Of a stretch of 52,248 nt of DNA, positions 4,571-46,874 are shown in pieces. Location: the NCBI GenBank assembly GCA_029001845.1, contig JAREWP010000027.1:1-52248 (forward strand), read 5' to 3'. The notes under the pieces are model-generated. The model did no database searches. It was not told the origin of the DNA and saw only the letters and a list, made by a program, of their open reading frames with translations. A program made the translations under genes and the position numbers. This DNA comes from Candidatus Magnetocorallium paracelense (GTDB lineage: Bacteria > Nitrospirota > Thermodesulfovibrionia > Thermodesulfovibrionales > Magnetobacteriaceae). Position 1 is the stretch's first letter, and each line of letters opens with the position of its first letter.

Positions 4571-4746
4571 AAGATCACCTCCCGAGAGGTTTTCGTTCGA
4601 ACAGGTCTTCCGGCTTAGGGCTGCCTACTTACCCACCTTCCCGGAGAATACAGTGTTTTTTTACTCCAGTGGTTTAAAGGGCTTTCGTTCCCGTTACGGC
4701 TGCTGGGCAGCGGGAGATTCTCACTCCTCTTCCACACATTCGAACG
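4571..4746 (-). promoter_or_regulatory. Cobalamin riboswitch with SD-containing hairpin, apparently orphaned
   Basis: Read on the minus strand, a closing stem CGTTCGAA ... TTCGAACG (4746 to 4594) encloses the conserved B12-box pieces in order: GTGAGAATC, CAGCAGCCGTAACGGG, CCACTG, CCGGGAAGGTGGGTAAGTAG and AGCCCTAAGCCGGAAGACCTG. Just downstream, CCTCTCGGGAGG forms a hairpin whose 3' arm is part of GGAGGTGATC, a full match to the 16S anti-SD. This looks like a translation-control platform for adenosylcobalamin-type ligands. No ATG follows at normal spacing: only ATA and a frame that closes after 19 codons. The controlled gene is probably lost or decayed. The next minus-strand gene is the PepSY protein about 400 bp on. 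Confidence 0.85.
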
Positions 4747-4815
4747 TTTAGAGTGGATTTAACTTTAACATTTTAGCAGATCGGCGCTAATTTATTCAAT
4801 ATCACAATCAATACC

Positions 4816-11059: not shown

Positions 11060-12004
11060 ATGAATATACGTCTTTTGTTTATTATAGTCATCATATTTTT
11101 AATAAGCTGTGAGAATGAGACAGCACGGCTTGAGATCAATCCTGAAGACAACATAAACAAGGTTGAACTGAATAAACTTATAGAAAGTACGAATGAAAGT
11201 CTGTTTTTATTTGGCTTCGATTTACGCTCCAGCCCTCAGGAAGACGCGCGACAATATGTCCCCTTTTTGGATTATCTGGAGAAAACAACAGATTTAAGTT
11301 TTGAGCTTCGATTTACTCCTTCCGACAACAATATAATCGATGATTTGGGTAGAGGAATTGTGAAATTTGCGGCAATCGGAGCAGGCAGTTATATACAGGC
11401 CCGGAGAAAGTACGATGTTATTCCCCTGGTAAGAGGGATTAATGAATTTAATAAAGCGGAATACCGTTCAGTTATAGCAGTATCCAACGACAGCCCCATA
11501 AGCACCATACAAGAGCTGTCAGGTAAACGTTTGGCTTTTGGAAGTTTTACATCCACGCAAGGGCATATCATACCCAGAATTGTTCTTATTAATTATGGCA
11601 TAACTCTGGAAGACCTGGGCTATTACGAATACCTCGGATCCCATTTCGACTGTGCGAATGCCGTCATTTCGAACCAATTTGATGCATGTGGCTTACAGGA
11701 TACGATGGGAGAAGGGCTGGCTCAGGAAGGTCGATTTCGAATCATTTACAGATCAAAGTATTACCCCTCCAGCGGTATCGCTGCAAACAAGGATCTATCT
11801 CCTGATGTATTGATTAAAGTAAAGCGAGCGTTACTTGATTTTGAACCTAAAGGAGGTAACGCTGCAAATCTGTACAAATGGGAAAAAACTGAAATGCCAA
11901 ATGGCTTTGTTGAAGCGCATGATGAAGACTATGAGGAGCTTCGTCATTATATTAATGAGTTTAATATTTTCCCGGAACCGGAAAAATCTCATAAAAAAGA
12001 GTGA
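11060..12004 (+). CDS. PhnD-like periplasmic-binding lipoprotein
   Basis: 314 residues. The N-terminus has a short hydrophobic signal and lipobox LISC with the lipidation Cys at 17. The mature part fits the phosphate/phosphonate-binding PhnD family: a first lobe with a DARQYVPFLDYLE helix, the ligand-loop area FAAIGAGSYIQARRKY, and a second-lobe entry PISTIQELSGKRLAFGSFTS. Proteins of this group either feed ABC transporters or act as extracellular sensors for kinases. No permease or ATPase gene is nearby, and a membrane histidine kinase follows 294 bp downstream, so sensing is the better guess. It is likely anchored to the outer face of the inner membrane or to the outer membrane. Confidence 0.82.
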   Translation: MNIRLLFIIVIIFLISCENETARLEINPEDNINKVELNKLIESTNESLFLFGFDLRSSPQEDARQYVPFLDYLEKTTDLSFELRFTPSDNNIIDDLGRGIVKFAAIGAGSYIQARRKYDVIPLVRGINEFNKAEYRSVIAVSNDSPISTIQELSGKRLAFGSFTSTQGHIIPRIVLINYGITLEDLGYYEYLGSHFDCANAVISNQFDACGLQDTMGEGLAQEGRFRIIYRSKYYPSSGIAANKDLSPDVLIKVKRALLDFEPKGGNAANLYKWEKTEMPNGFVEAHDEDYEELRHYINEFNIFPEPEKSHKKE

Positions 12005-15897: not shown

Positions 15898-18489
15898 ATG
15901 AATAGTTACAGATTACTGCAAACAGGAACATTTATTTTATTACTTTTACTGCTCTTGATCCACATCCCGGGCAATGCTTATGCAAAAGATTTTTACGTTT
16001 CCTATACACTTTCAGATGACAGCGATTACGACTTGAGTGACAACGAGTGTAATATATGTGAAGAGGGGGGAGAGTGTTGTACCAATTGGAGTACTCAGAG
16101 TGCTTGCTGTACGTTCAGGGCAGCGATTGAGCAGGCAAATGCCACTGCCGGGGAGGATACAATTTATGTTAATACAAGTTATACAATTGAATTGGAAAGT
16201 GAGCTTCCTGCAATAACGTCCCCTGTTAATATCTATGCAGATAAGTATGCAGATAATCCTACTTTGGACGGAACGAACGCCGGCTCAAACGCGGATGGTT
16301 TGAAAATATATGCCAATACTACAATAATAAACGATGGTGACTATAACTTCAATATAAAAAATTTCCATGGAAACGGAATCTTGGTCGATAATACTGACGC
16401 TGTTTTAAAACTCGATAGTGTCTCGATAAACTCTAACGGAGAGAACGGAATATACGTCAGGAATGGCAAGATTGATAAAGAGTCCTCATTTTCGATTACA
16501 AGTAACGGAGGTCACGGAATATGGCAGGAAACAGATGAGATGCTGGAACTGGGGTATTATCCCATAAGCATTTCCAATAACGGAGGTAGTGGTATTTGGG
16601 CAGGTCGTGAAGACCTTACAAGCAGAGTCCCTGTTCGTATTGTAAGTGGGCTGAATTTTTCCGATGACGATCTTCATGGAATAAGCTATAATCAAGGTTG
16701 GGGGATTTATGCAACCGGATGTCTTGATGGTGGGACATTTGAGTCTTCTGACGTTAATTGTACTTCAGTTGAACTTGACAAAGTGTCGATCAGAGGGAAC
16801 GGCAATTGGGGGATCGAATCTGAAAAAAATATAACCATAACCAATAGTCAAATCATGGAAAACGGTCAGAATGAGGAAGCCGGCGGAATATTAAGTCAAG
16901 AAGGCGCCATAACAGGACTGAGTATCAGAGTAGATTATAATGGCGGGCCAGGTATTCATTCAGTTAAAAGTGACATTTCTTTGGCAGATGTTGTGATTGA
17001 GTATAATAAAGGGGATGGTGTTTTAACAGGAGAAAACGGAAACGTTGCGTTTGACGCTGATCCAAACCTTCTTTACAGTAAAACTTTAGATACAAACAGA
17101 TCAAGTCAGAGATTGAGTTATATAACCAGAAATGACGGGAGAGGAATAAAGGGGAATTCTGTATCGATTCATGAACCAATTTTTATCTCTGGTAACGGCA
17201 GCTGGGGAATTGAGGCCGGTTCTGAAGGATTAATAATGGGGTATCTTGATGATACTGCTACGACCGCTTTTGAGCAATACAGCAAGGTTGATTCAAACGG
17301 AGATGGTGAGCTTTGCTATGAATGGAATGGTTTTCTGGAACCGTTGGACTGTACAGGCGGAGGTATATTTAGTGAGGGCGGCGTACAGGCTGCTAATACA
17401 TATATAACAGATAACGGCGGACCCGGTATCTTTGCTTATGGAACCATAGATTTGCTCAGAATTGTAATTCAATCTAACAAAGGTGACGGTGTTCGAGTGG
17501 GCACCGGGGACGGAAGCGGCCGCGATGGATCTGTTTTGATAGATAGTGACACTGAATACAGCGAGATTAACTATAATCAGGGGAATGGAATTAAGGTAGA
17601 CGGATGTGCGGTAAAATGGGCGAATGATTATTGGTATGACGGTTGTGTTTCCGTAGCAATTCATGCACCGATTAATATAACAGAAAACGGTGGTTGGGGT
17701 ATTGATGCTTCTGACGGAGTATATATGGGTGTAGAATCGGTAGTAACTTATGACGCAGATGTTGTACCGCTAACAGAATTAAGTACAATCAGTGGAAACG
17801 GAAAGGGATTTGACTGCTATAAAGTTGACAGTGACGGAAATATAGATGAAACGGTATGCACGGGAGGCGGGATTTTTGCCGGAAGAGAAGAAGATGGTGA
17901 AGAACTCGATAATGTGAAAATATATAATACCCTGATCGAGAACAATGGAGGCGCCGGAATAGTTGTTGAGGAGGCGATTGCAGAGTTGGCTATGATAAAG
18001 ATCGCTGAGAATGAGGGGCCGGGAATACAGTCAGGCAGTTCTAAAGGAGGCGGAGGTGTCCATATAGTACCAAATGACGGATATGACGGCTATCGTGATG
18101 ACTTTATTGTAGACAATAAAGGAAGCGGGATTTTAGCCAAATCCTGTGTGAATAAAAATATATCGGGCGGGTCCGGTTGTATATCCGTAGCGGTAAGAAA
18201 TTCGACACAAATCGATAGTAACGGAGGCTGGGGCATTGAAGCGGAAGGGGATGTATTTATGTTGGCCTCACCGGAACAACGAAGCAGAGTTGTCAAAAAT
18301 GGTTGGGGAGATGAATGCTATGAGTATCACAGCCTGGATGGAGTAACCTTTCCTGTTGATTGTATAGGCGGAGGAGTGTACAGCAAAAGAAATATTAAAA
18401 TCAAAAGTGCTTACTTTTGTGACCATCAACAAGAGGATATACTTGCCGAAGGTGAAACAATTACAGAAGATGTCATGTATTGTCAATAG
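15898..18489 (+). CDS. Large secreted parallel beta-helix protein
   Basis: 863 residues, with GGAGG well placed before the ATG. The signal peptide spans 1-29 (LLLLLLLIHIPGNAYA). A Cys-rich N-cap contains CCTFRAAIEQANATAGEDTI, equivalent to the CSLREA-type start of many surface beta-helix proteins. The rest is irregular repeats of the form I..NGG.GI.A...I.L..V.I..NKGDGV, typical of right-handed parallel beta-helices, with internal larger repeats each holding Cys pairs (for example VTGGGIF-like turns after a Cys). No membrane anchor or autotransporter barrel is seen. A role in adhesion or polysaccharide binding is likely. Expression may vary with the upstream CAGA run. Confidence 0.85.
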   Translation: MNSYRLLQTGTFILLLLLLLIHIPGNAYAKDFYVSYTLSDDSDYDLSDNECNICEEGGECCTNWSTQSACCTFRAAIEQANATAGEDTIYVNTSYTIELESELPAITSPVNIYADKYADNPTLDGTNAGSNADGLKIYANTTIINDGDYNFNIKNFHGNGILVDNTDAVLKLDSVSINSNGENGIYVRNGKIDKESSFSITSNGGHGIWQETDEMLELGYYPISISNNGGSGIWAGREDLTSRVPVRIVSGLNFSDDDLHGISYNQGWGIYATGCLDGGTFESSDVNCTSVELDKVSIRGNGNWGIESEKNITITNSQIMENGQNEEAGGILSQEGAITGLSIRVDYNGGPGIHSVKSDISLADVVIEYNKGDGVLTGENGNVAFDADPNLLYSKTLDTNRSSQRLSYITRNDGRGIKGNSVSIHEPIFISGNGSWGIEAGSEGLIMGYLDDTATTAFEQYSKVDSNGDGELCYEWNGFLEPLDCTGGGIFSEGGVQAANTYITDNGGPGIFAYGTIDLLRIVIQSNKGDGVRVGTGDGSGRDGSVLIDSDTEYSEINYNQGNGIKVDGCAVKWANDYWYDGCVSVAIHAPINITENGGWGIDASDGVYMGVESVVTYDADVVPLTELSTISGNGKGFDCYKVDSDGNIDETVCTGGGIFAGREEDGEELDNVKIYNTLIENNGGAGIVVEEAIAELAMIKIAENEGPGIQSGSSKGGGGVHIVPNDGYDGYRDDFIVDNKGSGILAKSCVNKNISGGSGCISVAVRNSTQIDSNGGWGIEAEGDVFMLASPEQRSRVVKNGWGDECYEYHSLDGVTFPVDCIGGGVYSKRNIKIKSAYFCDHQQEDILAEGETITEDVMYCQ

Positions 18490-19202: not shown

Positions 19203-20144
19203 ATGAGGCAAATTTACAAAACTATATTTCTTGTCTTTCTACTTTTCTTTTTTTACAAAGAGAGCTTATATTCGGAAACAGATAAAGAGCATATCGGGAC
19301 AATTGAACCAGGCGATGTGCCTGTTTTGTCCCTTGGTTATACGATGAAAGATATACTGGCAGGTGATGTGCCTGAAGAAGATACTTTAACGGCAATGGAG
19401 ATGTGGACAAAAGAACTGGCAAGTAAGATTGGTTTAAGAGGCGAAAATAAAGTATATGACGATATGAATTCACTTTTAAAGGACTTTAAAGATGAAAAAA
19501 TTGATTTGGCTGTCGGATCAGCACTTGAGTATATCAAAATCAGGAATGAGATTGAATCGGAACTTGCCATGGGTTTCTTAAAAAGTGGAAGACAAAGCGT
19601 TAAGCATCTGCTTCTTGTACCGCAGAATTCAGGAATTGAACGTATAGAAGACCTTAAAGGCAAAACACTGGCGACTGTTAAAAACAGCAGAAACTCAATG
19701 CTGTTTCTTAATATCGTGCTTCTCAGGAATAAAAAGAGGGAGGCCGATCATTATTTCAGTAAGATAATAAAGAAAAGTAATTCATCTGAAGTTGTCCTTT
19801 CGGTTTTTTTTAAAGAATTTGACGCCGGGATTGCAACGGATACAGCACTTGAAGTAATGTCGGAGTTAAACCCGCAGATCATAAAACGTTTAAAAATAAT
19901 TGAGACTTCACCTCTTTTGATTGAAAGTATAAGTTTTTTTCGTAGGAATTATAAATATAAAGATCTGGTAAGAACGAGGAGCATCACGATAAAAGACAGC
20001 CCAAAGGGAAGACAGTTTCTAATGCTTTTTAAAACAGAGGCTTTGGGCTATCTCAAAGAGTCGGATTTAAAGCCGATGGAAGCCCTTTATAATGAATATA
20101 AAAAACTTCTGTCAGAGAAGGAATCAGGTGGAACAAGGCAGTAA
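19203..20144 (+). CDS. PhnD-like periplasmic binding protein
   Basis: 313 residues with a hydrophobic export signal (about 5-25, FLVFLLFFFYKESLYS). PhnD-family elements are YTMKDILAGDVPEEDTLTAM near the start, the first-lobe FKDEKIDLAVGSALEYIKI and the hinge-to-second-lobe GIERIEDLKGKTLATVKNS. There is no lipobox Cys, so it is probably a soluble periplasmic protein. The last 43 codons are duplicated almost exactly at 10914-11044. There is no ABC permease or ATPase nearby, so the ligand and partner are unknown. It is convergent with the polysaccharide operon that ends at 20232. Confidence 0.75.
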   Translation: MRQIYKTIFLVFLLFFFYKESLYSETDKEHIGTIEPGDVPVLSLGYTMKDILAGDVPEEDTLTAMEMWTKELASKIGLRGENKVYDDMNSLLKDFKDEKIDLAVGSALEYIKIRNEIESELAMGFLKSGRQSVKHLLLVPQNSGIERIEDLKGKTLATVKNSRNSMLFLNIVLLRNKKREADHYFSKIIKKSNSSEVVLSVFFKEFDAGIATDTALEVMSELNPQIIKRLKIIETSPLLIESISFFRRNYKYKDLVRTRSITIKDSPKGRQFLMLFKTEALGYLKESDLKPMEALYNEYKKLLSEKESGGTRQ

Positions 20145-20231: not shown

Positions 20232-21542
20232 TTATAAATCATTATCCTTTACCGCTTTTGAAGTTTTCCAGGGATTCCACTTGTCCTCAAAGGATACTTT
20301 GAACAGAAGCTCCATCAAATGAGCATAGGTACGAACGATTCTCAGATAGATACCGGTATAAAGAGGCATAAGAGGGAGGAAAAGAGCCAGGGTGACCTCC
20401 TCTCTTTTCAGAGTCTTCCAATAAATTGTCAAAACCATAAGAAACTCCAACACATTTAAAAAGAAATACAAGAGAAAGTTAATGGCGGCAATATAAAGAA
20501 TCGACTCCGTATAAAAGATGGAGACATGAATTACATAAATCCACCATTTTATATTGAAAACCACATTAAACAAAATATTTTCAAAGGAAGAGAGGAAATT
20601 GAGGAGAGAGAAATTTTTGGACGGGAGTAACAGATCCAAGTGTTTTCTGAGTCTGAAGCGGATAAGCGACCGATCCCATCTGTATCTCTGAACAGCGAGC
20701 TTTTTAAATGTATCCGGTACATTCGTATAACAAATCGCTTCATACTGAAAAGCGATTTTATAGTGCAGTTTTCTGATCCGTAAAGTAATGTCTCCGTCCA
20801 GACCCGGGCCTATATCCCAACCTTTGATTCTGTCAAGAATATCCTTACGAAACGCACCGTATGCCCCTGAGATAATACGTAGTATTCCAAACCTGGAGCT
20901 TACGATTCTGCCCAAAGAGATGCCCTTTAGATACTCGATGGCCTGAAGGGTTGTGGAGAGGGTGTCGTTACAATTGCTTACGCGAATGTCGCCGGCCACT
21001 GCGCCTGTTTGTTTATCCAGATAAAAGGGCAGGAGCAGATTTTCTATGGAGTCGTATCTTAAATGGGAGTCAGCGTCAAGATGGACGATATATTTCCCGC
21101 TGCAATATCGTAAAGCCAGATTCGCGGCTGATGCCTTTCCGCCCCTGAATTCGTTTCTGAAAAATTTATCAATCTCTCCCCTTTGCTGCAACACCCTGCA
21201 AATATGGGGCGTGTTGTCATCGGACCCGTCATCTACGATTATAATCTCTATATTCCTGTAAGTCTGCTTTTTTAAGGATTCCGCTAAAGCAGGGATATGG
21301 CGACCTTCGTTTTTTCCCGGCGCAATCACGGAAATAAGGGGTCTTTCGTTAAAAAGCGCTTTCCGGGCTTTCTCTTTTTCGCGGGTCCTTTTGTTCTGTC
21401 CTTTAAAGTGTAAATAGACAATAATTACATCGAAGATTGCGTAACGTATAAAATCGAAGAGAATAAAATACCAGAAGTAAGCAATCAGCTGGGGAATGCT
21501 CTTATCCAAGAGAAAGGTTGTCAGTTCCTCGATGAATGTCAC
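20232..21542 (-). CDS. Processive family-2 glycosyltransferase, membrane bound
   Basis: 436 residues. One membrane helix lies near 20-45, then the GT-A domain: PLISVIAPGKNEGRHI (68-83), VDDGSDD (103-109), the metal-binding HLDADS (154-159), an acidic acceptor site GLDGDIT (247-253) and the QRYRW motif (285-289). These are the D, DxD, xED-like and Q(R)xRW motifs of processive synthases such as cellulose, hyaluronan and alginate synthases. Several membrane helices follow (about 325-400). It would polymerise a polysaccharide from nucleotide sugars and thread it across the inner membrane. It is the last gene of the operon, and its ATG overlaps the previous stop by four bases. The sugar is not predictable. 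Confidence 0.9.
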   Translation of the reverse strand: MTFIEELTTFLLDKSIPQLIAYFWYFILFDFIRYAIFDVIIVYLHFKGQNKRTREKEKARKALFNERPLISVIAPGKNEGRHIPALAESLKKQTYRNIEIIIVDDGSDDNTPHICRVLQQRGEIDKFFRNEFRGGKASAANLALRYCSGKYIVHLDADSHLRYDSIENLLLPFYLDKQTGAVAGDIRVSNCNDTLSTTLQAIEYLKGISLGRIVSSRFGILRIISGAYGAFRKDILDRIKGWDIGPGLDGDITLRIRKLHYKIAFQYEAICYTNVPDTFKKLAVQRYRWDRSLIRFRLRKHLDLLLPSKNFSLLNFLSSFENILFNVVFNIKWWIYVIHVSIFYTESILYIAAINFLLYFFLNVLEFLMVLTIYWKTLKREEVTLALFLPLMPLYTGIYLRIVRTYAHLMELLFKVSFEDKWNPWKTSKAVKDNDL

Positions 21543-22957
21543 AGATCCTCTGTTATGTCCGCGATCAGACCTTCAGAATCCAATTCCATGGAATCCTCTA
21601 TCATTCTGAAAGAGATGTGAACCTCATGTATCTGTTCGAGATTATTATCAAGGAGATTCTTTATACGGGATCTGAGTCGATCGAGACCTGTCTCGGCGCC
21701 CTCTTCCTCTGTCTCTGTAAGGATAATGAGGAAGTCACTTTCACTTAAGGATGTGATCACATCACTTGTCCTCAAGAGGGCCTTTATGGCTGAGCTGAGT
21801 TCGTCGAAAATCTGCTTTGCCCTGTCCCCTGCCTCCATATATACCTTGTCCAGCTCTTTTATGCTTAAAAGACAGAGGGCAGACGTGAAATTTTTATATC
21901 GTTTGATCCTTTTGATTTCGATATTGAGGAATTTTTTAAAAAAATCATAGGGCAGAAGCTCTATCTCCTTTTCCAGAGCTTTTATAAAGAGACTGTCCAT
22001 CCCGTGGATCGAGGCGTTTTCCGCCAGAGGCGTGATGGAGTATTTCTTGATTGTCCGCATAATCTGCTCTTCCGGCTTTGTCAGTTTGCCGCAATTATAG
22101 CAGTCAGTGATAATATTCGGGTTTTGAAAGGAATTGCCGCAGTCATTACAGTTAAAGACGATGGAAGGCTTGTCATGGTCCGTTCCGATATGCTTAACGG
22201 CCCTGTCGCATTTGGGGCACACCAATTTCCCCTCTCTGTTAAAGTCATCGAAAGGCCCTACATAACCGCAGTGAAAATGGTGGATCAGATCGTCTGTCCT
22301 GAGATTTGGGGATTCGCATCTCGTGCAGATCTCTTTGAAATTGAGAAATGCGCTGTGACAGGAACTGCAAAAATAGGCTCTGTCGTAAAAGGTCGATGAA
22401 AAGAGCCGCTGACTCTCCAGGAAATCAAAGGAGTGGAAAATCTCTTTGTCCGGCCGACTGAAAAAAATCTCTACATCGGGGTAAGTAAAGCCATAGATAG
22501 TAGCTGTACTCTTCATCGGAACAAGTTCGGTTGCACGACTGTAAAGATAGCGAAGAATTTTAAAAACCAGATTGGTGTCCGATTCTTTATCTGCATTGTC
22601 GAGAAAAGCTGTTTTTCTGTTTATCCTCTCTATAATATCCTGCAACTGTTGAAAGTATACGCCGTTAAAGCGGCGTACAGACATCGAGCCGTCGCAGGCG
22701 CTTTGGAGCTCTTTGGAAATGTGATCTCCAGGCTCCAATATGATAGTCGGCTTCAAATAGATCGCAGGAACAGGGCTTTGCCTGATCCTTGACAGCACCT
22801 TCCTGGCGAAGTCTTCACTGATTCCTTCGATCAGAAAAAGCCCTGTGTCGATAAAATCACGGTACTGAAACTTATCGATATCTGCACAGTCATAGGCGAT
22901 GACCTCTATGTTGTAACATATCTCGCTTCTTGTAAAAAATATGTTATTCCCTTCCAT
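21539..22957 (-). CDS. TackOD1 zinc-domain protein with degenerate GGDEF domain
   Basis: 472 residues, soluble. Residues ~1-120 look like a divergent receiver-like alpha/beta domain (DTGLFLIEG, PAIYLKP). Residues ~190-290 contain a dense set of metal ligands: C197/C200, C211/C214, HFHC 227-230, C247/C250, C270/C273 and C286/C289. This matches the TackOD1 output domain described in archaeal and bacterial signalling proteins. The C-terminal ~330-455 fits the GGDEF fold (SALCLLSIKELDKVYMEAG), but the signature loop is SLSESDF instead of GG(D/E)EF, so it probably cannot make c-di-GMP and may bind a nucleotide or partner. It is translationally coupled to the glycosyltransferase and HlyD genes, so a regulatory role in polysaccharide synthesis is likely. 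Confidence 0.8.
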   Translation of the reverse strand: MEGNNIFFTRSEICYNIEVIAYDCADIDKFQYRDFIDTGLFLIEGISEDFARKVLSRIRQSPVPAIYLKPTIILEPGDHISKELQSACDGSMSVRRFNGVYFQQLQDIIERINRKTAFLDNADKESDTNLVFKILRYLYSRATELVPMKSTATIYGFTYPDVEIFFSRPDKEIFHSFDFLESQRLFSSTFYDRAYFCSSCHSAFLNFKEICTRCESPNLRTDDLIHHFHCGYVGPFDDFNREGKLVCPKCDRAVKHIGTDHDKPSIVFNCNDCGNSFQNPNIITDCYNCGKLTKPEEQIMRTIKKYSITPLAENASIHGMDSLFIKALEKEIELLPYDFFKKFLNIEIKRIKRYKNFTSALCLLSIKELDKVYMEAGDRAKQIFDELSSAIKALLRTSDVITSLSESDFLIILTETEEEGAETGLDRLRSRIKNLLDNNLEQIHEVHISFRMIEDSMELDSEGLIADITEDL

Positions 22958-24056
22958 ACTTTTTAAACCTTACCTCCACATCAAGAAGGTCATATTTCCT
23001 CCATAACTGCAAAGAGGAATTGTTAAGGGGATAGATTTCCGCCTTTACCTTTACGCCAACAGGATCATAGAATTTTTTTAAGGATTGCTCATATTCATAG
23101 GCAGAGGAATAGATGCTCCCAATTTCACCTTTGTCCGACCTTCCGTCAGGAAACCTGATTTCCACAACTCCTCCCTCCTTCAAAAACCTGAAATCCTTAA
23201 GTTTAAAAAAAGCCTCTATCCTGCCTTCGACAGGACTTTCGATAACCAGCGCCGTTTCGCCTTCCGTAATATACTCATGCAAAGGGCTGTGAATAAACCT
23301 GACAACTCCGGCAACAGGAGAGGTTATGATTTCATAGGGAGCGAAGAGCAATTCTAAGGGGGTGGTTTCGTTCTTCTTCCAGGCATTATCGGGCAAATAG
23401 AGATCGTATCTCTCCTCCAGACCTTGAGAGCGATTTTTGTGACGTTCTTCCATCTCTCTCAATTGCTCTCTGTATACTCCTCTATCTATTGCCAATAGCT
23501 CTATGTTACGCTCCATATCCTCGATCTCTTTTTTTAAAGATGCATACCCGGCGGAACTTCGGCTGTCCCTGAATACTTCCAGAGCCTTACCTGAGGGAAG
23601 CTTTTTAAGACTCTCTCTCTTTTTGTTAAGCAGAGATTTCAAAGATTTCAGCTTTCTTTCCGATGCCTTTACAGCCCCTGTGAGCCGGGCCTTTTCCGAC
23701 AAGTAGTCCTCTGTAAAGGCGTATTTTTGACGTTCAAGGAAAAAGAACATCTCCGTGGAAAGGGATGAGAATTTTATTCTCAATAGTTGTTGATTCGCTG
23801 TAACCACATCTCCGACGGAAACGAAATATTCGACAATATTGCCTTTTTTAGGGGCCTGAATATTATACTTTGTCATACTGACTCTGCCTGCGCCTTCGAT
23901 ATAAATAAAGTTCTTTATTCCGAAGAATAAAAGATAACCTGTAATAAGAAAGAGAATCAGGTAATAGAGCTTCCGTGCAAATTTGACCGATTTTCTTCCG
24001 GCAGGAGAGCCTTCAGGCAGGGAGAGGATCGTGCTTTGTCTGTTTCTAAGATTCAC
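22944..24056 (-). CDS. HlyD-type periplasmic adaptor (membrane fusion) protein
   Basis: 370 residues. One N-terminal membrane helix (about 30-48), then a split biotinyl-lipoyl-like domain: first half YNIQAPKKGNIVEYFVSVGD with VTANQQLLRI (about 64-95), a long coiled-coil hairpin (about 100-220), the second half YEIITSPVAGVVRFIHSPLH (about 240-260), then a beta-barrel region with GVVEIRFPDG. This is the adaptor architecture that bridges an inner-membrane exporter or synthase to an outer-membrane channel. In alginate-type systems an HlyD-like protein (Alg44) joins the synthase and binds c-di-GMP through PilZ, but no PilZ domain is present here. It overlaps the upstream gene by 4 bp and the downstream gene by 14 bp. 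Confidence 0.85.
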   Translation of the reverse strand: MNLRNRQSTILSLPEGSPAGRKSVKFARKLYYLILFLITGYLLFFGIKNFIYIEGAGRVSMTKYNIQAPKKGNIVEYFVSVGDVVTANQQLLRIKFSSLSTEMFFFLERQKYAFTEDYLSEKARLTGAVKASERKLKSLKSLLNKKRESLKKLPSGKALEVFRDSRSSAGYASLKKEIEDMERNIELLAIDRGVYREQLREMEERHKNRSQGLEERYDLYLPDNAWKKNETTPLELLFAPYEIITSPVAGVVRFIHSPLHEYITEGETALVIESPVEGRIEAFFKLKDFRFLKEGGVVEIRFPDGRSDKGEIGSIYSSAYEYEQSLKKFYDPVGVKVKAEIYPLNNSSLQLWRKYDLLDVEVRFKKYGRE

Positions 24057-26110
24057 GGTTGTCGTTCCACCATTGTAATCAGGCGTTTTACATCGTGAAA
24101 AGCGAATCTGTTAATCGCGGTTTCTTTTTTTATCTTTTCAATAAAAGTTTCCATATCAAGCTCTCTGTCGAAGTCCGTGTAACGTAGGGAGAGAACGATC
24201 TGATCTCTGCATGACTCGAGAAAGGGGGCCATTTTGCTCTTCATCTTTTTCCAATCCCTTATACCGTAAGCCATTACATAAACAATATCCGAGAATTCGC
24301 AAATCTCGTTGAGATAATCCCTAAAATGGAGAGGAACGGAAACCGAAAGAGTCTGGTCAGGCTCTTTAAGAAGGCTGATTCCGTGCAGCATTTCCAGATA
24401 ATAACGGATGTAGATATCCCTTTTTTCACTGTAATCCGACAAGATTTGAGGCTCGATATCGAGATGTACAACAGGATTGATCGAATAAAGCCTTTGCACC
24501 CTTTCCTTTACTTTGTGGAAATTTTCGGGAAATATCCACTCTGTACTGCTGCCTACCAATTCCACTGATATTTCGAGCTCCTTTGCTCTGTCAAGGAATC
24601 CAAGGAGCTTTTTACTATTGATTTTTTTTGAAGCGGACAGGAGCGCTCTGTCTATGGATTTGGCTGTGAGGAGGTCGAAAATGAAGTTATTATCATAAAG
24701 ATTGAAAGAGTGGGACCAGATATATATCGCCCTTTCGCCGACTCTCAGTCTCCTCTGATCTTCGACAAAGTCAACACTCTTTATAAAGTCGCTGTTATAT
24801 CCCCTGCCTGAATCGGAGAGAATTTTTAGGGCTCCTATGTAGAGCTTTTCCTTTAAATCGATAATTTCAAAATCTATGTCTGTGAGGTCATTAATTTTGT
24901 TTATTATAATCGGGAGATTTCCCATATTGATTCTATTATAGATAAACTCCCTTCTCAATTTTTCCGTTACATACAACTGCTTATAGTGGAGTTTAATGGC
25001 GTCTCCCACTTTATACCTGTATTCGTAGTAGCTGCGCTTTGTATGTTCCATAATATCGAGTCTCCCAAGTTTGCCGATGAGATCTTTCTCTCTTTTTTCG
25101 ATATCGATCAGGCTTTTGGTGTCCTCAAACAACGGGATGCTCAGGTTCAACCCGAATGTGGTGTTACCTGTGCCCCGATTATTTTCATCTATATCCAGGC
25201 CCTGTCTTACAAATATGTTAAAACGTCTCTTGTCCCACTCGATATTCCTGCCCTCTATAATCTTTTTTTCCATATCCGCGATCTTTTCATAGGTGTCGTC
25301 CTCTTTTATCTCTTGAAGAAGCTTTTCTATATGAATGTCAATAAAGGGAGGTTCAATAAATCCTCTGGCAGTGTCTTTATGATCGAATGCGTTAATATAG
25401 AGCCTAAAATTATCGATCATATTTTCCACGCTTCTGAGGCGTTCTTCGACACGCACTGTTTCATCGAGGTGGATCACTCCCAAAAAGTAGAGTTTTTTAA
25501 GTAAATCATATTGCGCTGAAAGTAACTGAAATTTGATATTGAGGATATTTAATTTCAGATTGTTAAAGTAGTAGATAACACTGTCATGCCTGCACCCGGT
25601 CATTCTGTTAAGCTGCAACGCTTTGTATCTCAGCCTGGAAAGCGCGAGATTGTATTTGGCTGTTTCTGCTCTGTTTTTATTTTCAAAAAGCCCGTCGTCG
25701 AGCATCTTCCATGTAAGGCCGGCGTAAATGGAGTGACTGTCATCGTCAGTCACCTCAATTGTAGATCTGTATCCTATATCGAAATTCAGTCCCGGATCGC
25801 TGTCGAACCTCTCAAACTGCCGATCATAGACTTCCTCTTTTATTTTCAGCTCATCGTGTGACTTGCACTCGCTCTCCATAATCTCCTCTATATAAGGATA
25901 AATGGAGTCTTCCTTCTCTATGGAAATCAATTCGTTATACAATTCGTAAAATCTGGAAACGCTTTTACTGTCAATAATTTCGGAAGGCTCTACAGGGACT
26001 GTATGAATATATGAATCCGTATTTTCGCCATAAACAGAAAGAGAGATAAAAATTACAATTATAGTTAAGACAACAGAGATAATGACTGAATTTCTTATGT
26101 TTATATTCAT
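24053..26110 (-). CDS. TolC-like outer-membrane protein fused to a C-terminal TIM-barrel-like domain
   Basis: 685 residues from the chosen ATG at 26110, which opens a signal peptide (MNINIRNSVIISVVLTIIVI). A longer frame to 26197 would bury it. Residues ~100-440 have the long helices and short strands of TolC-family channels (LNFDIGYRSTIEV, FNIFVRQGLDI, TTFGLNLSIPLFED). The C-terminal ~220 residues do not belong to TolC: RAIYIWSHSFNLYDN, LEISVELVGS, a VVHLDIEPQ strand with D and E, then IVYVMAYG and IVLSLRYTDF. This strand order resembles a TIM barrel of the glycosidase type, with the acidic DxE at a strand end as in some glycoside hydrolases. It is the first gene of the polysaccharide operon. 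The channel assignment is good; the enzymatic part is inference. Confidence 0.72.
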   Translation of the reverse strand: MNINIRNSVIISVVLTIIVIFISLSVYGENTDSYIHTVPVEPSEIIDSKSVSRFYELYNELISIEKEDSIYPYIEEIMESECKSHDELKIKEEVYDRQFERFDSDPGLNFDIGYRSTIEVTDDDSHSIYAGLTWKMLDDGLFENKNRAETAKYNLALSRLRYKALQLNRMTGCRHDSVIYYFNNLKLNILNIKFQLLSAQYDLLKKLYFLGVIHLDETVRVEERLRSVENMIDNFRLYINAFDHKDTARGFIEPPFIDIHIEKLLQEIKEDDTYEKIADMEKKIIEGRNIEWDKRRFNIFVRQGLDIDENNRGTGNTTFGLNLSIPLFEDTKSLIDIEKREKDLIGKLGRLDIMEHTKRSYYEYRYKVGDAIKLHYKQLYVTEKLRREFIYNRINMGNLPIIINKINDLTDIDFEIIDLKEKLYIGALKILSDSGRGYNSDFIKSVDFVEDQRRLRVGERAIYIWSHSFNLYDNNFIFDLLTAKSIDRALLSASKKINSKKLLGFLDRAKELEISVELVGSSTEWIFPENFHKVKERVQRLYSINPVVHLDIEPQILSDYSEKRDIYIRYYLEMLHGISLLKEPDQTLSVSVPLHFRDYLNEICEFSDIVYVMAYGIRDWKKMKSKMAPFLESCRDQIVLSLRYTDFDRELDMETFIEKIKKETAINRFAFHDVKRLITMVERQP

Positions 26111-26197
26111 TTTAAAAAATTTAGGTAACTGTTCAGACAGGATTACAGGATAAATACTATGATCTACAAGACAATAATCTTGCTTTATCTTGTTCAT

Positions 26198-34232: not shown

Positions 34233-37200
34233 ATGGAATCTAAGGCCCTTGAAGCAAATATAAAAGAATATGGCGTTGACGTTGAAATAGATCCAAAATA
34301 TAAGGCTATTCAGGAGTTAATGTCAGGTTACTACGGTTTACAAGAATGTCTGGCCAATTATCTGAAAGAGTTAAGCCATCCATATAAAAACTGGAAATAC
34401 ATAGTCGACGAGACAAGGGTGTATTCGCTGGATAAGTTTCATATGATGATAGAAAGTCCGAAAGGAGCCGAGGTGGCGGCATTATTTCTCGAAATATCCT
34501 GTGAAGCTCTTGCAGAGAATAATAAGAGCGACATCCTCGATCATGCTGTTAATAATATCATGCTCTTTTGCCAGAAAATGATTCGTGACAGCAGCGACAG
34601 TTTGGAAACGTTTCTTCCTGTTTTGGAAAGAGCCTTTCGATTCATCGCCGAATGCGATATGGATATTTTCATTCGTTTTGCACGGGGGTTTTACAGGCTA
34701 AACAGAATCGCCGGCTCTTTCATCGAAAATGCTCCTTTAAATACGAACAAAGAGTGGTTAATAAAATCGCTTATCAGGTTTTACGATTATACTTACAGTT
34801 ACTGGTTAGACCTGCCGGACCCGCTTTTATGGTTCAATAATGAAATAGGTCACGATATTCCCGATGAGAAGCTTTCAGATTTATTTCAATTTGTAAAGCA
34901 CGAGAGTATAAGACAATATATGAGTGAGCTGAACGATATAAAAGATGCTGCTGACTCGGCTTCAGTGGAAAATATAGAAAGATTACTCTCCCTGCCGGGT
35001 TACCTGAATATAACGTCTGCCTATGATGCGCTGCCATCCGGATTGTTCAGATTACATGAAGAGAAATCCATGGGAAATCGCTGTAAAATAGTTTTTCTCT
35101 TTCATATCATGAATATAGAGGGACTCTCTTCCATTCATGAAGATACTCTCAGGGAGATTAACAGGACTTTGAAGTGGTTTGTAGAAAATGAAGATATCTA
35201 TAAAAATATGGGGCTCATAGAAAAAACTTTTACCATACTCCATTCATCTGTAAAGAAATTTCCCGATACTACTCTGAACTGCCTGTCCGGCATAGGTAAC
35301 GGCGTATACAAAACAGACGAGAGTGATCTGGTGGATTTTTTTATTGAGAATATTCTCACTCTTGGCTTTCAGCCTCCCGATTTTGCCGGTGTAACGGACG
35401 AATGGCAGATACAGGTGAATACTTCCCATCTAAAAAATATTCGTACTTGGATGGAGACGATATCTCTTAAGCCGAAATGGTCAAAAAGACTAATCTCCTC
35501 TCTTATCATAAATATATCTCTTTCCGGTTTATATATAAAAGACACAGACCTCTTTCCCCGTGACATCACAAAGCTCCTGAACAGTGATATAGAGCCTGTA
35601 TATAATCTGATTAAACAACTTGTAAGGCTTTTCCCCGTTTATTTTAATGAGATCGGCGCCGAAGGAGAACTCAGAGATATCTCCACACGTATAGACGAGA
35701 TAAATAAGAGAGAGGACAGACTCATACATTTTCTGAGAAAACAGTGCCATGTTGAAGGAAGTAACAAGATTATTTCATTTATAGAGGCCGTGCTTCAATT
35801 TTGGATCACAAAATCGAAAGAAGGTCTTGACTCTTTTTTGCCTCCCAATATCTATGACGATATCGACGAAAAGGGCAGGTATGTGGACGGTGTGCATAAA
35901 ATTTTTGACTGTTTGTATAAGCAGCATGGAAGCAGTACACCTTCGGACCTCTGTTTTCTGACCGACAACGATATAAAAGAGTGTTACCATGCCTTTCCCG
36001 ATATTGCAGAGGCCGAGAAGGAGAGGGCCGCGCTGATACTTAAGCTTTATAAGCTTCTGGATCATAAGTACAATATTAGTTTCAGCGAGATAGATGAATA
36101 CCTGGCCGGACTTCAATCGAGCGCTTTCCCTGATCTGTATTCGCTTCGCCAGGTGATCGCTTCAGCGACATTGGAGACTGAAGAAAAATTGTCCTCAATC
36201 CTTGATTATTTGGATAATCTGATGAAAAAGATACTTTCTGAAGAGAAATTCGAAATTCAGGAGGATATTTACAGAAAACGCCATATATCTGTCAATATAC
36301 CTTCCATGTACGGAACCTACCATGAAGTAAAATTCGATGCTCTCGGACTGACTCTCAGACTCGAAACACTGGTAAACGCCTTGTTTGAAGAGTTGATCGA
36401 AGATATGGATATTCACCTGATAACAAGATCGACTTTTTTTCAGATACATCGATTCCTCACCCTCTTTAACAGGGCGCTGAATCTTGACGGCATTTCCTCA
36501 AGAGAGTTTGAGCAGCAGCTCAACCTGCTTTCTCATTCTCTGGATATCGGAGGATTCACTTTTACTCAATATCTCGATATCTTTCGTGGTTTTTCCGAGG
36601 CAGTACACAATATCGTTAATGATTATTACACCAATATTCATATAGAAAATCTGACGACCATACTTGCAGACATACCTGAAGAACGTCTTCCCGGTAAATA
36701 TAAACAGGATATGGTATTGTATACCGAAAACGGTAATAACAGGGAGACATTTATTCATAAAGTTTCGGAAATTTTCCTCAGAGACAGGATTGCATCGGCC
36801 CTCGGACTTCAGCGTTTGGATCTTTTTATAACGCGAATTTTAAATACCTTAAACAGAGAAGCAGATGAACTGCCTGACGAGAGTTTGCAGCAGATACTCA
36901 CTTACGATCCCAAAAGAGCTTTGACTAATATAACCGCTCCTGACCCAGTTGTTTCAAATATTATAAATATGGGCAATAAGGGGCTCAATCTTACCAGGCT
37001 GCAAATGCTGGGTATTCAGATACCGCCCGGCTTTATTGTCACAACCGAGATATTCAGAAACAGAAACCTGATCGAAGACTACCTGCCTGCGCAAAAGAAC
37101 TTCAGAGCCCGCGTCGAACAGCAACTCTCTGTTCTTGAAAAGCAAACGGGAAGTCTCTTTGGAAGTCCCGATAACCCTCTGCTGCTTTCGGTAAGGAGCG

Positions 37201-38414
37201 GATCCGCCTTCTCTCAACCGGGAATGCTGGATACATATTTGAACGTAGGGATCAATGAGGAAATCGTCGAGGTCATTGCTTCTAAAACAGGGAAGAAGTG
37301 GTTTGCCTGGGACAGCTACAGGCGTTTTTTGCAGAGCTATGGTATGTCTTTTGGTATAAAAAGGGATGATTTCGACTCTGTTATCGCTGATTTTAAAGAG
37401 AGATACGATGTACCGAGAAAAAGAAATTTAAAGGGAAATCAGATGAAAGAGGTTGCCCTGGCCTATAAAGAGCTCATCCGTTCAAAAGATATTGCCATAG
37501 AGGATTCGCCTTTGGAGCAGCTGTATATTGCTATTAAAATGGTGCTGAATTCATGGAATTCTCCAAAAGCGGCTGCATATCGCAGGATAATGGGTATTTC
37601 AGATGATTGGGGTACTGCCGTTACGGTGCAAAGGATGATCTTTGGAAATATATCCAATCGCTGCGGATCGGGTGTGTTTTTTACTCATAACCCAAAGTTG
37701 CCGGGAGATACGTTATGGCTCTGGGGAGATTACGCAACATGGGATCAGGGAGAAGATCTGGTGTCAGGTCTCATTAATACATTGCCAATATCCATGAAAC
37801 AGGCGGAAATAGAAAATCGTACTGCCGAACCTACGCTTGAGTATACTTTTCCGGATATATATAACGCTCTCAGAGATGTGGCGAAAAAATTGATATATGA
37901 AGAGAGATGGCCTCCTCAGGATATGGAGTTTACTTTTGAAGGTCCAACGGCAAAAGAGCTTTTTTTTCTCCAAACCAGAGATATGGATATTAGGGAAAGG
38001 AAGATTACAAGAGCATTTGAAATTACTCCTGAAATGTCATCCAGACTACTTGGACACGGGATCGGTGTGTCGGGCGGTGTTATGTCAGGCCGTGTCGTAT
38101 TTACAGGAGAGGAAATTCTTCACTGGAGAAAAAAGGAGCCGTCCACTTTATTGATTTTGGTCAGAATAGATACGGTGCCCGACGATATTCAGGAGATATC
38201 CGAGGCGGACGGGTTGCTTACTTCAAGGGGCGGCTCTACTTCTCATGCCTCTATTGTAGCGAACAGGCTTGGAAAAATATGTGTCGTAGGGTGCGCCGAC
38301 TTGCTCTGTATAGAGAAGGAAAAAAAGTTCCTTTTAAACAGAAAGGAGATTCGCTCTGGCGATTTTATTGGAATAGACGGAATAGACGGCGCCATTTATG
38401 AGGGAAAAATATGA
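34233..38414 (+). CDS. PPDK/PEP-synthase-like protein with large N-terminal helical region, lacking the PEP-binding barrel
   Basis: 1393 residues, with GAGGAGAG before the ATG. Residues ~1-880 are helical with no recognised domain. Residues ~890-1240 form the ATP-grasp (PPDK N-terminal) domain: NMGNKGLNLTRLQMLGIQIP then PGFIVTTE, the Arg-rich LLSVRSGSAFSQPGMLDT loop and DMEFTFEGPTAKELFFLQTR. Residues ~1270-1393 are the phosphohistidine swivel domain with LTSRGGSTSHASIVANRLGK, catalytic His 1338. The usual C-terminal PEP/pyruvate TIM barrel is missing. The domain set resembles glucan-water dikinases and rifampin phosphotransferase in using a His~P to move phosphate from ATP to an unknown acceptor, perhaps bound by the long N-terminus. 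Confidence 0.85.
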   Translation: MESKALEANIKEYGVDVEIDPKYKAIQELMSGYYGLQECLANYLKELSHPYKNWKYIVDETRVYSLDKFHMMIESPKGAEVAALFLEISCEALAENNKSDILDHAVNNIMLFCQKMIRDSSDSLETFLPVLERAFRFIAECDMDIFIRFARGFYRLNRIAGSFIENAPLNTNKEWLIKSLIRFYDYTYSYWLDLPDPLLWFNNEIGHDIPDEKLSDLFQFVKHESIRQYMSELNDIKDAADSASVENIERLLSLPGYLNITSAYDALPSGLFRLHEEKSMGNRCKIVFLFHIMNIEGLSSIHEDTLREINRTLKWFVENEDIYKNMGLIEKTFTILHSSVKKFPDTTLNCLSGIGNGVYKTDESDLVDFFIENILTLGFQPPDFAGVTDEWQIQVNTSHLKNIRTWMETISLKPKWSKRLISSLIINISLSGLYIKDTDLFPRDITKLLNSDIEPVYNLIKQLVRLFPVYFNEIGAEGELRDISTRIDEINKREDRLIHFLRKQCHVEGSNKIISFIEAVLQFWITKSKEGLDSFLPPNIYDDIDEKGRYVDGVHKIFDCLYKQHGSSTPSDLCFLTDNDIKECYHAFPDIAEAEKERAALILKLYKLLDHKYNISFSEIDEYLAGLQSSAFPDLYSLRQVIASATLETEEKLSSILDYLDNLMKKILSEEKFEIQEDIYRKRHISVNIPSMYGTYHEVKFDALGLTLRLETLVNALFEELIEDMDIHLITRSTFFQIHRFLTLFNRALNLDGISSREFEQQLNLLSHSLDIGGFTFTQYLDIFRGFSEAVHNIVNDYYTNIHIENLTTILADIPEERLPGKYKQDMVLYTENGNNRETFIHKVSEIFLRDRIASALGLQRLDLFITRILNTLNREADELPDESLQQILTYDPKRALTNITAPDPVVSNIINMGNKGLNLTRLQMLGIQIPPGFIVTTEIFRNRNLIEDYLPAQKNFRARVEQQLSVLEKQTGSLFGSPDNPLLLSVRSGSAFSQPGMLDTYLNVGINEEIVEVIASKTGKKWFAWDSYRRFLQSYGMSFGIKRDDFDSVIADFKERYDVPRKRNLKGNQMKEVALAYKELIRSKDIAIEDSPLEQLYIAIKMVLNSWNSPKAAAYRRIMGISDDWGTAVTVQRMIFGNISNRCGSGVFFTHNPKLPGDTLWLWGDYATWDQGEDLVSGLINTLPISMKQAEIENRTAEPTLEYTFPDIYNALRDVAKKLIYEERWPPQDMEFTFEGPTAKELFFLQTRDMDIRERKITRAFEITPEMSSRLLGHGIGVSGGVMSGRVVFTGEEILHWRKKEPSTLLILVRIDTVPDDIQEISEADGLLTSRGGSTSHASIVANRLGKICVVGCADLLCIEKEKKFLLNRKEIRSGDFIGIDGIDGAIYEGKI

Positions 38415-44620: not shown

Positions 44621-45730
44621 CTATTTGGCCGGTGTTTTCTTAGCCGGCGCAGTTTTTCCGTCTGCTCTTTTGTGGAGCCATTCGGATATTGCCGGGGCCA
44701 GTTCTTTTTGGGATTTTCCTCCTACAAAGACACCTATATGTCCGCCTTTGAACTCGTAAAGTTCTTTGTCAGTACTTGAAACCAGGTCGTTTAATGGTTT
44801 TGTGGAACTGGGAGGAACGATATGATCGCCGCTGGCGAAGATATTAAGGAGCGGCATGTTGATATTCTTCAGGTCAACTTCTTTATCACCTATCTTCAAA
44901 CCGCCTTTAACAAGTTTATTGCCCTGATACATATCTTTTATGAATTGTCTCAGAGTCTCACCGGCCTGGGCGGGGCTGTCAAATATCCATTTCTCCATCC
45001 TCAGAAAATTAAGAAGTTTCGTTTTGTCGTCAACCAAATCCAGCATGCCCAAATATTTACTCAGATTGAGAGTAAAGGGCATCAACATTAAAAAACCTTC
45101 GTTCAGGAAATCACCCGGTATGAGACCGTACGTGTCTACCAGTGCATCGATATTCATCTTCTTTGACCAGCAAAACAGGAGTGCGTCATTTGGAGCAAAA
45201 TCTATCGGTGTCACTAATGTAACGAGATTTTTTACTTTTTCCGGATACATTGCCGAATACATAGTGGAAAATGTGCCGCCCTGACATATGCCCATAAGAT
45301 TGACTTTATCGTTATTCGAAGACTCTCTGACATAATCTACACAGTCATTTAAATAAACATTCAGATAGTCATCAAGAGTCAGGCACATATCCCCTTTAGT
45401 AGGATACCCCCAATCGATAATATAGAGGTCCATCCCGTGTTGAAGAAGATTTCTTACTATGCTTCTGTCAGGTTGCAGATCCAGCATATACTGCCTGTTA
45501 ACGAGAGCGTATACGATTATAACCGGGACGCTGCAGGTAACCTTGCCCTCTTGCTTGTAGTGATAGAGCTTTACCTTATCGTCCTGATAAACCAGCTCCT
45601 TGGGTGTTGTTCCCACATCGATTTCTTCTATCTCAGTGAGCACTTCGGAACTTTTGATCAATTTTTTATTTAGCTCGTTTAATTCTGTGACGATGCTTTT
45701 TGTATCGACAGTCATAAAAGGCGAATTCAT
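44621..45730 (-). CDS. phaC: Class III polyhydroxyalkanoate synthase, catalytic subunit
   Basis: 369 residues, the short length typical of class III PhaC. The alpha/beta hydrolase fold has the lipase-like box GICQGG with catalytic Cys 149. The general base pair is Asp 302 (FASGDHIVPP) and His 331 (KGGHIGVFVGG). These numbers equal those known for the Allochromatium vinosum enzyme. It polymerises 3-hydroxyacyl-CoA into PHA at the granule surface together with PhaE. A Lys/Ala/Pro-rich tail (TAPAKKTPAK) is an addition. It is last in the order phasin-like, phaE, phaC, 85 bp after phaE, and is ended by a strong terminator. Confidence 0.96.
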   Translation of the reverse strand: MNSPFMTVDTKSIVTELNELNKKLIKSSEVLTEIEEIDVGTTPKELVYQDDKVKLYHYKQEGKVTCSVPVIIVYALVNRQYMLDLQPDRSIVRNLLQHGMDLYIIDWGYPTKGDMCLTLDDYLNVYLNDCVDYVRESSNNDKVNLMGICQGGTFSTMYSAMYPEKVKNLVTLVTPIDFAPNDALLFCWSKKMNIDALVDTYGLIPGDFLNEGFLMLMPFTLNLSKYLGMLDLVDDKTKLLNFLRMEKWIFDSPAQAGETLRQFIKDMYQGNKLVKGGLKIGDKEVDLKNINMPLLNIFASGDHIVPPSSTKPLNDLVSSTDKELYEFKGGHIGVFVGGKSQKELAPAISEWLHKRADGKTAPAKKTPAK

Positions 45731-45815
45731 ATTTTACCCTCCTCTTTATATGTAAAATTTTTGTATATTTAAAGATTGTTCCGTCGCTTCGCCCGGATTT
45801 CCAAAGAGGCCGGTT

Positions 45816-46874
45816 TTATTTGTCGGCCAGCTTCTTTTCCAGGGTGCGAACTTTTCTTTTCAGGTTGTGTATGGTTTTATAGAGATCGTCCATCTCGGAT
45901 CTGAGAGCGATCGGATAGTCTTCCAGGGAAAGTTCCATTAAGCTCTGAAAACCCTTTCTCGTGGCGAGCCCGGCTTCGAGCAGCTCTCCCTGAAGTTTTG
46001 AAAACTCTTCGGATTGAAGGAGGCCGGCGAATGTCTTTTCGTTCAGACTTACCCAGAGATTAAAAAATTCGTTGTAACTCTTAATCTCGGCGCCCTCAGT
46101 TATTTTCTGTGCGACAGCCTCTATTACCTTTTCCATGCCTTTCTGGCCGGTGACATACATCTTATGTTGAAACTCGGTGTGTTTAGCCAGATATACGGAG
46201 TAATCGTCAAAGGTCTTGAGCAGAAGCTCCATCTTCTCCCTGTCTTTTCCGACAGGCGGCATTTTAAAAACCTTTCCGATTGTCTGTTCAAAGGCCCCGT
46301 ACATATTATTAAATATATTCATTGTTGATTCAGGTTCGCCTGACATAAGACCGGGCATGATATGCATGCTTTTCTGCATTGCATCGATCCAGGGCTTTAA
46401 TGCGTTTTGTGAAGACGATGCCCATGTGGAGAAAACATTCGATGACTGACCATAGAGTTCGTTCAATGCTTCGGGAGTCGTAAAACCAAAGACTTTATCG
46501 ATAACCGCCTTGTATTTCTCGGGATCTATTAAATCCTTGAAAGATTCGACGTTCATTGTTTTTTCCTGCATCGCTTTCACTATTGGGGACCAGAATTCAT
46601 AGAGCTTCATATATGAATCGGCGCCTGTAAACAACTTTGTAAAGGTGTCTTTTCCTAAACCGGAAGGAAAGTTTTTCATCATATCCTCAAAGGATTTACC
46701 GACTGTCGAGGTCCAGCTGCCGTATAAACCGGAAGTGTCTCCCGCTCCCTCTTTATTAAGCCCGTAAGAGTTTAATAATGTCTTGCGAATGGTCTCTGCG
46801 CCTTCCATCCACTTCTTTATAAAATCCTTTTGTGAATTAAACCATGAATCGTAAAAATTTGAAAATTTATCCAT
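45816..46874 (-). CDS. phaE: PHA synthase subunit PhaE
   Basis: 352 residues, helical. The family features are an N-terminal FYDSWFNSQKDFIKKWMEG, the segment YSVYLAKHTEFQHKMYVTGQ, FNLWVSLNEKTFAGLLQSEE and the C-terminal coiled coil LYKTIHNLKRKVRTLEKKL. PhaE has no catalytic residues but is needed for class III PhaC activity, forming the PhaEC complex on granules. A well-formed SD (AGGAGGACC) lies before the ATG. It is directly upstream of phaC and downstream of a phasin-like gene. Confidence 0.93.
   Translation of the reverse strand: MDKFSNFYDSWFNSQKDFIKKWMEGAETIRKTLLNSYGLNKEGAGDTSGLYGSWTSTVGKSFEDMMKNFPSGLGKDTFTKLFTGADSYMKLYEFWSPIVKAMQEKTMNVESFKDLIDPEKYKAVIDKVFGFTTPEALNELYGQSSNVFSTWASSSQNALKPWIDAMQKSMHIMPGLMSGEPESTMNIFNNMYGAFEQTIGKVFKMPPVGKDREKMELLLKTFDDYSVYLAKHTEFQHKMYVTGQKGMEKVIEAVAQKITEGAEIKSYNEFFNLWVSLNEKTFAGLLQSEEFSKLQGELLEAGLATRKGFQSLMELSLEDYPIALRSEMDDLYKTIHNLKRKVRTLEKKLADK

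Follow-up and report, generated by a model that had tools for sequence, protein, structure and literature searches.

A conserved four-gene set joining a GT2 synthase and a TackOD1 regulator to an HlyD adaptor and a TolC-TIM fusion: a candidate exopolysaccharide secretion system

Synthase-dependent exopolysaccharide systems are recognized by a processive family 2 glycosyltransferase (GT2), a regulatory domain that binds cyclic di-GMP (c-di-GMP) or a co-polymerase, a periplasmic modifying enzyme, and a pore made of tetratricopeptide repeats (TPR) and a beta-barrel; a 2020 survey covers five such polysaccharides, with exporters of the TPR/beta-barrel type (PMC7112194). Inside exopolysaccharide systems, PelD and BcsE bind c-di-GMP by way of the I-site of a degenerate GGDEF domain (PMC8461298). 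The rhizobial mixed-linkage glucan involves the HlyD-type protein BgsB and the c-di-GMP-activated GT2 BgsA (PMC9495663, PMC5567048), and in cyanobacteria XcsA, the HlyD protein XcsB and TolC form a proposed tripartite cellulose exporter whose genes do not lie in one operon (Maeda 2018, reviewed in PMC12430437). The mxdABCD cluster of Shewanella oneidensis, needed for three-dimensional biofilm, encodes the c-di-GMP-binding degenerate-GGDEF protein MxdA, the GT2 MxdB and the efflux-like MxdC (PMC3691769, PMC7666153, PMC3409153). The TackOD1 domain was called obscure in a 2018 archaeal survey, the one paper found that mentions it (PMC5847659). Here, a four-gene set on the minus strand (20232-26197) of contig JAREWP010000027.1 from Candidatus Magnetocorallium paracelense is set beside these systems; "the window" denotes the whole 52,248-nucleotide stretch analyzed. 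The set encodes a GT2 synthase, a TackOD1 regulator, an HlyD adaptor and a TolC-like channel fused to a TIM barrel, and likely forms a synthase-dependent machine that secretes exopolysaccharide by a TolC-type route.

Conservation of the four-gene set

Calling of open reading frames (ORFs) places four minus-strand genes at 20232-21542, 21539-22957, 22944-24056 and 24053-26197 (or to 26110), with neighbors overlapping by 4, 14 and 4 base pairs (bp). These positions and overlaps agree with the original prediction made for this DNA. In plus-strand coordinates the order is GT2 synthase, TackOD1/degenerate-GGDEF regulator, HlyD adaptor and TolC-TIM fusion, and all features of the set given below lie on the minus strand. 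Promoter and terminator scans gave no signal clearly above shuffled sequence, so no operon promoter is claimed.

The set is real, widespread and apparently unnamed. Scanning GTDB genomes with an alignment of the regulator found at least 568 relatives, from which the best 80 loci were taken; chosen through the regulator and including near-duplicates, they are not 80 independent events, which is a first point against the proposal above. In 65 of the 80, ORF calling and hidden Markov models recovered the genes for TolC-TIM, HlyD, regulator and GT2, in that sequence and on a single strand, with median intergenic gaps of 0, -1 and -1 bp in the conserved loci. A six-frame check found all five domains in 67 of the 80, several of the exceptions being cut at a contig end. 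The original prediction had proposed a co-encoded synthase, regulator, adaptor and channel that should also occur together elsewhere; the conserved order bears out the first point, and the 65 loci, which come from other genomes, bear out the second. Carriers among the best 80 include Gammaproteobacteria, delta-type lineages, Bacteroidota, Nitrospirota, Acidobacteriota, Omnitrophota, Caldisericota and others.

A comparison across 395 genomes of the phylum provides a check that is independent of this regulator-based selection. TackOD1 occurs in four of them, and strong matches to the TIM barrel (E<1e-47) occur in exactly the same four, the next best match standing at 5e-22 (Fisher p 1e-9). Two of the four carriers (L016 and L017) hold all four genes in the changed order regulator, GT2, TolC-TIM, HlyD, so the set is retained even where its order is not. 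Among 40 relative genomes searched, TackOD1 scored above the cut-off only in the window's own genome.

A second locus type, regulator-GT2-HlyD without the fused TolC-TIM, lies on plasmids of Plesiomonas, Photobacterium, Phyllobacterium, Roseibium and others; in some of these three-gene plasmid loci a true receiver domain is present and the I-site is gone. On a plasmid of Rhodobacteraceae M382 (L013, 11351-13389), a UDP-glucose 4-epimerase gene (galE) comes right after regulator-GT2-HlyD, which hints at the sugar donor.

Synthase and TolC-type export route

The GT2 polysaccharide synthase (20232..21542, 436 residues) is assigned from Pfam (Glycos_transf_2, 2e-27), alignment and hydropathy. Membrane helices are found at its N- and C-terminal ends, and alignment with 28 relatives shows that the catalytic D105, D156xD158, D249/D251 and QxxRW (285-289) are invariant. 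These motifs and helices are those of the inner-membrane GT2 of synthase-dependent systems, with processivity presumed from the likeness. The nearest NCBIfam model, PgaC/IcaA (TIGR03937), gives 147 bits against a cut-off of 422.3, ruling out a PgaC equivalog; a BcsA/CelA equivalog is likewise ruled out, at 21 bits against 699 (TIGR03030).

In a quick GT2 tree, the window's protein, 58% identical to one from Chromatiales, falls inside a mainly Pseudomonadota set with support of 99 and sits apart from the GT2s of other carriers in its phylum. This placement would fit horizontal transfer, short of proving it. Nested among Crocinitomicaceae are GT2s from contigs titled Kuenenia and Chryseobacterium (L066, L055), which are probably mis-binned or misnamed contigs of metagenome-assembled genomes.

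Downstream export would use the two remaining membrane-linked proteins. The HlyD-family periplasmic adaptor (22944..24056, 370 residues) matches HlyD_3 at 1.8e-10 and Biotin_lipoyl at 1.4e-4 in Pfam, and hydropathy gives it a single N-terminal membrane helix. The TolC-TIM fusion (24053..26110, 685 residues) is delineated by hydropathy, alignment and an AlphaFold model. Position 26110 corresponds to Met30 of the longest ORF (24053-26197) and is a better start than 26197, because Met30 opens directly onto a signal-peptide-like segment, and in alignments the residues ahead of it face gaps in most homologues. Taken alone, the fusion protein has no Pfam match, and a sequence-only search of the PDB with it found none either. 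Its relatives match OEP/TolC in Pfam (3.4e-28 for L017, 1e-13 for L016), one (L015) matches Glyco_hydro_18 at 5.4e-6, below the gathering cut-off, and a profile of the family against the PDB returned weak matches to glycoside hydrolase family 18 (GH18) together with entry 10yv. Among plasmids, no relatives of HlyD or TolC-TIM were found.

The AlphaFold model, built from 47 sequences, has a mean predicted local distance difference test score (pLDDT) of 85.4 and divides into two halves. The first, a TolC-like outer-membrane channel (residues 104-470, 24788..25888), has Foldseek E-values down to 9e-13 and a VIA Z score of 20.0 over 363 residues against Klebsiella TolC, and it displays the four beta strands and long helical barrel per subunit of the TolC/outer membrane factor fold. 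The second, a GH18/GH153-like TIM barrel (residues 486-714, 24053..24742), matches SleL (Z 19.5), GH18 chitinases (Z 18-19) and E. coli PgaB (Z 17.9), and in Foldseek PgaB ranks first among the fusion's matches other than TolC. The TolC-TIM fusion with an enzymatic-looking domain, as originally described, is thus right, the model joining TolC (Z 20) to a TIM barrel (Z 18-19.5).

Conservation is higher in the barrel than in the channel half, with a mean identity to the window's protein of 27% versus 20%. After barrel strand 4, alignments place the motif H578-L-D580-I-E582 (24452..24466) at the GH18 position, with H578 kept in 64, D580 in 65 and E582 in 67 of 69 proteins; a 25-row alignment shows W494, D580, E582, M642 and Y644 invariant. 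The barrel reads xxxHxDxE where GH18 has DxxDxDxE, so that the middle Asp has become His and the final D/E is kept. Fold and motif position in the model are no proof of enzymatic activity, and the barrel is called glycoside-hydrolase-like only.

Related barrels occur elsewhere. On a Methylocystis plasmid, beside TackOD1-GT2, one ORF matches the TIM model as well as the fusion model and TolC is a gene of its own (L012, 12450-13469 and 13588-15042), which gives an unfused version of the fourth gene's parts. Weaker GH18-like TIM proteins are present outside the TackOD1 system in 46 genomes of the phylum; three of these proteins (L105, L104, L102) have no GH family match in Pfam.

The PgaC-like synthase and the likeness of the barrel to the C-terminal hydrolase domain of PgaB lend some color to a divergent poly-N-acetylglucosamine (PNAG, pgaABCD) system, in which HlyD and TolC-TIM would replace PgaA and PgaB. 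Such an origin is quite unlikely. The GT2 stays far below the curated PgaC score (147 versus 422 bits), the set has no PgaD, no PgaB-type deacetylase and no TPR/beta-barrel porin like PgaA, and the barrel's matches include GH18 enzymes besides PgaB. Because the GT2 is PgaC-like and the barrel GH18/PgaB-like, the polymer of the proposed machine may, at a guess, be based on N-acetylhexosamine (N-acetylglucosamine type).

HlyD/TolC pairs usually serve pumps of the ATP-binding cassette, resistance-nodulation-division or major facilitator superfamily type. Under such a model, a pump encoded at another locus would use HlyD and TolC-TIM to secrete a protein or small molecule, and the GT2 would only glycosylate the cargo or make a glycolipid. 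We regard this as very unlikely, since the conserved set has no pump gene, the GT2 gene adjoins the regulator gene in nearly all complete loci, and the fused sugar-hydrolase-like barrel points to polysaccharide. A secreted polysaccharide would be the product expected of the proposed exopolysaccharide machine.

TackOD1 regulator and proposed mechanism

The regulator (21539..22957, 472 residues) lacks a membrane helix and is defined by Pfam, AlphaFold and alignment along PleD. Its model (pLDDT 88.6) shows TackOD1 between a receiver-like N-terminus and a GGDEF fold, and structure comparison aligns it over its whole length to PleD, WspR and DgcR. The receiver-like alpha/beta domain (residues 1-120, 22598..22957) is drawn from the secondary structure of the model and from alignment, and two alphaproteobacterial relatives have true receivers in this position according to annotation, with Pfam agreeing for L014. 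The TackOD1 zinc-ribbon domain (22034..22585) rests on PF18551 (E about 1e-51 to 3e-51; 174-177 bits against a cut-off of 32) and on a Cys/His alignment. Across 84 regulators it is the most conserved part: Cys197, 200, 230, 247, 250, 270 and 289 and His226 and 256 are invariant, and Cys211, 214, 273 and 286 are kept in 81-83.

The C-terminal domain (residues 325-472, 21542..21985) is a degenerate GGDEF, with a Pfam match of 1.4e-7 and structural matches to diguanylate cyclase domains at Z 14-16. The GG(D/E)EF motif of active diguanylate cyclases occurs in 0 of the 84 regulators. A candidate RxxD I-site, R396-T-S-D399 (21761..21772), precedes this slot, which begins five residues later and reads SESDF in the window. 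R396 is Arg in 58 and Lys in 13 of the 84, and D399 is kept in 81; the window's regulator retains R396, D399 and R427, as do 36 of the 84. The host genome has 58 matches to GGDEF and 15 to PilZ, and because of these 58 GGDEF matches c-di-GMP is probably available there.

Because the window keeps the I-site residues and PelD and BcsE offer a precedent, the regulator is probably a c-di-GMP receptor like those two, which is likelier than a zinc-only switch. The original prediction had routed control through a zinc-rich TackOD1 domain with a broken GGDEF; the break is confirmed by SESDF, and the retained I-site argues against the part that set zinc in place of c-di-GMP. Control by the zinc domain or by a receiver-like signal, the GGDEF being a structural remnant, would agree with the strong conservation of TackOD1, with the loss of the I-site in alphaproteobacterial relatives that have a true receiver, and with the presence of R427 in just 36 of the 84. 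It is nevertheless unlikely here, given the intact RxxD in the window and in 58 of the 84, and a host rich in c-di-GMP proteins.

Two settings of TackOD1 stand somewhat apart. On a Roseibium plasmid (L014, 8068-18471), receiver-TackOD1-GT2-HlyD lies amid Hpt proteins, response regulators, a diguanylate cyclase and a CHASE protein, and looks like a phosphorelay-controlled version of the set. On a Halorussus plasmid (L115, 5031-7992), a DUF2334 gene and a glycosyltransferase come after a haloarchaeal match to TackOD1; four other haloarchaeal TackOD1 copies have no glycosyltransferase neighbor. Since haloarchaeal TackOD1 genes mostly lack such a neighbor, the claimed link between TackOD1 and GT2 is confined to bacteria.

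In the proposed mechanism, the membrane GT2, whose catalytic motifs are in place, would polymerize a nucleotide sugar and pass the chain across the inner membrane. The HlyD adaptor would then bridge the synthase to the TolC half as the outer-membrane exit, a contact suggested by the two folds. The conserved TIM barrel fused to TolC may trim, hold or guide the emerging chain, in the manner of PgaB and BcsZ. The soluble regulator would bind c-di-GMP at its retained I-site and, via TackOD1, switch on the adjacent synthase. Besides the selection of the 80 loci noted above, several observations weigh against this picture. The three-gene loci of Plesiomonas, Photobacterium and alphaproteobacteria have no fused TolC-TIM nearby, and the GH18 motif is altered by its His, leaving the predicted barrel activity unproven. 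The I-site Arg is missing in about a third of relatives and R427 in over half; c-di-GMP binding may not be family-wide, and structural reasons may account for the conserved Asp.

Other features of the window lie outside the four-gene set. Just past the end of the GT2 gene lies a PhnD-like (phosphonate-type) substrate-binding protein (19203-20144), with a second PhnD-like protein at 11060-12004. An 863-residue ORF (15898-18489) has no match in Pfam or NCBIfam, and a 1393-residue protein (34233-38414) carries PPDK_N and PEP-utiliser domains behind some 900 residues that have no Pfam match. A class III polyhydroxyalkanoate synthase-like pair, comprising a PhaC-like hydrolase-fold gene and a PhaE subunit, occupies 44621-46874, and a cobalamin riboswitch (65.1 bits) lies on the minus strand at 4583-4758.

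Relation to known systems

No name for the four-gene set turned up in the searches of Pfam, NCBIfam and papers, in line with the original prediction; that statement is weakened by mxdABCD, which may have three of the four parts in common with it. Within one cluster needed for biofilm matrix, Mxd brings together an efflux-like protein, a GT2 and a degenerate-GGDEF protein that binds c-di-GMP, as the window's regulator probably does. It differs in that no TolC-TIM is described and its gene order is that of the three-gene type, a distinction drawn from descriptions rather than sequence. The window's set could then be a distant member of this already named exopolysaccharide locus, a possible reading that we hold with some doubt. 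It gains from the roles of MxdA, MxdB and the pump-like MxdC, whose mutants lack three-dimensional biofilm, and from the Plesiomonas and Photobacterium loci, where regulator-GT2-HlyD has the same order as mxdABC. Against it, and with the comparison made by description only, no Shewanella locus is among the best 80 of at least 568, no Shewanella plasmid matched, and a scan of viral contigs with the mxd promoter primer was without a match. Moreover, the Plesiomonas and Photobacterium GT2s form a very long separate branch of the quick tree (length 2.85) and lack a neighboring TolC-TIM gene, and mxdD is described merely as a conserved hypothetical. Mxd looks like a partial counterpart of the four-gene set, with homology as a lead.

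Chances are about even that the exopolysaccharide machine proposed here represents an unnamed and widespread class, in which a GT2 exports through HlyD and a TolC with a hydrolase-like barrel under a TackOD1/pseudo-GGDEF c-di-GMP switch, and that this is the first bacterial role of TackOD1. If so, TackOD1 acquires a concrete hypothesis, namely that it links a polysaccharide synthase to signals from c-di-GMP or a phosphorelay. Pel and cellulose systems use, as proposed for the regulator here, a degenerate GGDEF with an I-site (PelD, BcsE) as c-di-GMP receptor; unlike the regulator here, PelD is membrane-bound with a GAF domain, export runs through TPR/beta-barrel proteins, and TackOD1 is absent. 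In bgsBA, c-di-GMP binds the C-terminus of BgsA, and neither a TackOD1 regulator nor a linked TolC or TIM barrel is described.

Membership in the classical synthase-dependent type is rejected on the pore, since the exit is TolC-like plus HlyD instead of TPR/beta-barrel (PMC7112194). The set probably works like the classical systems despite its other exporter, and a TolC-based exopolysaccharide route encoded as one unit would, if confirmed, extend export beyond the TPR/beta-barrel type. The HlyD/TolC pair that was originally presented as a new exit is indeed encoded, whereas HlyD partners have precedents in XcsAB-TolC and BgsB/BgsA. Xcs comes close in export, for it joins a GT2, an HlyD adaptor and TolC in a proposed tripartite exporter and has the endoglucanase XcsC as partner. 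It differs in that XcsA is a cellulose synthase with a PilZ or PCR domain, TackOD1 is absent, the hydrolase is not fused to TolC, the genes are scattered in Thermosynechococcus, and the model is unproven. With the corresponding genes in one operon, the locus described here would make the XcsAB-TolC idea directly testable.

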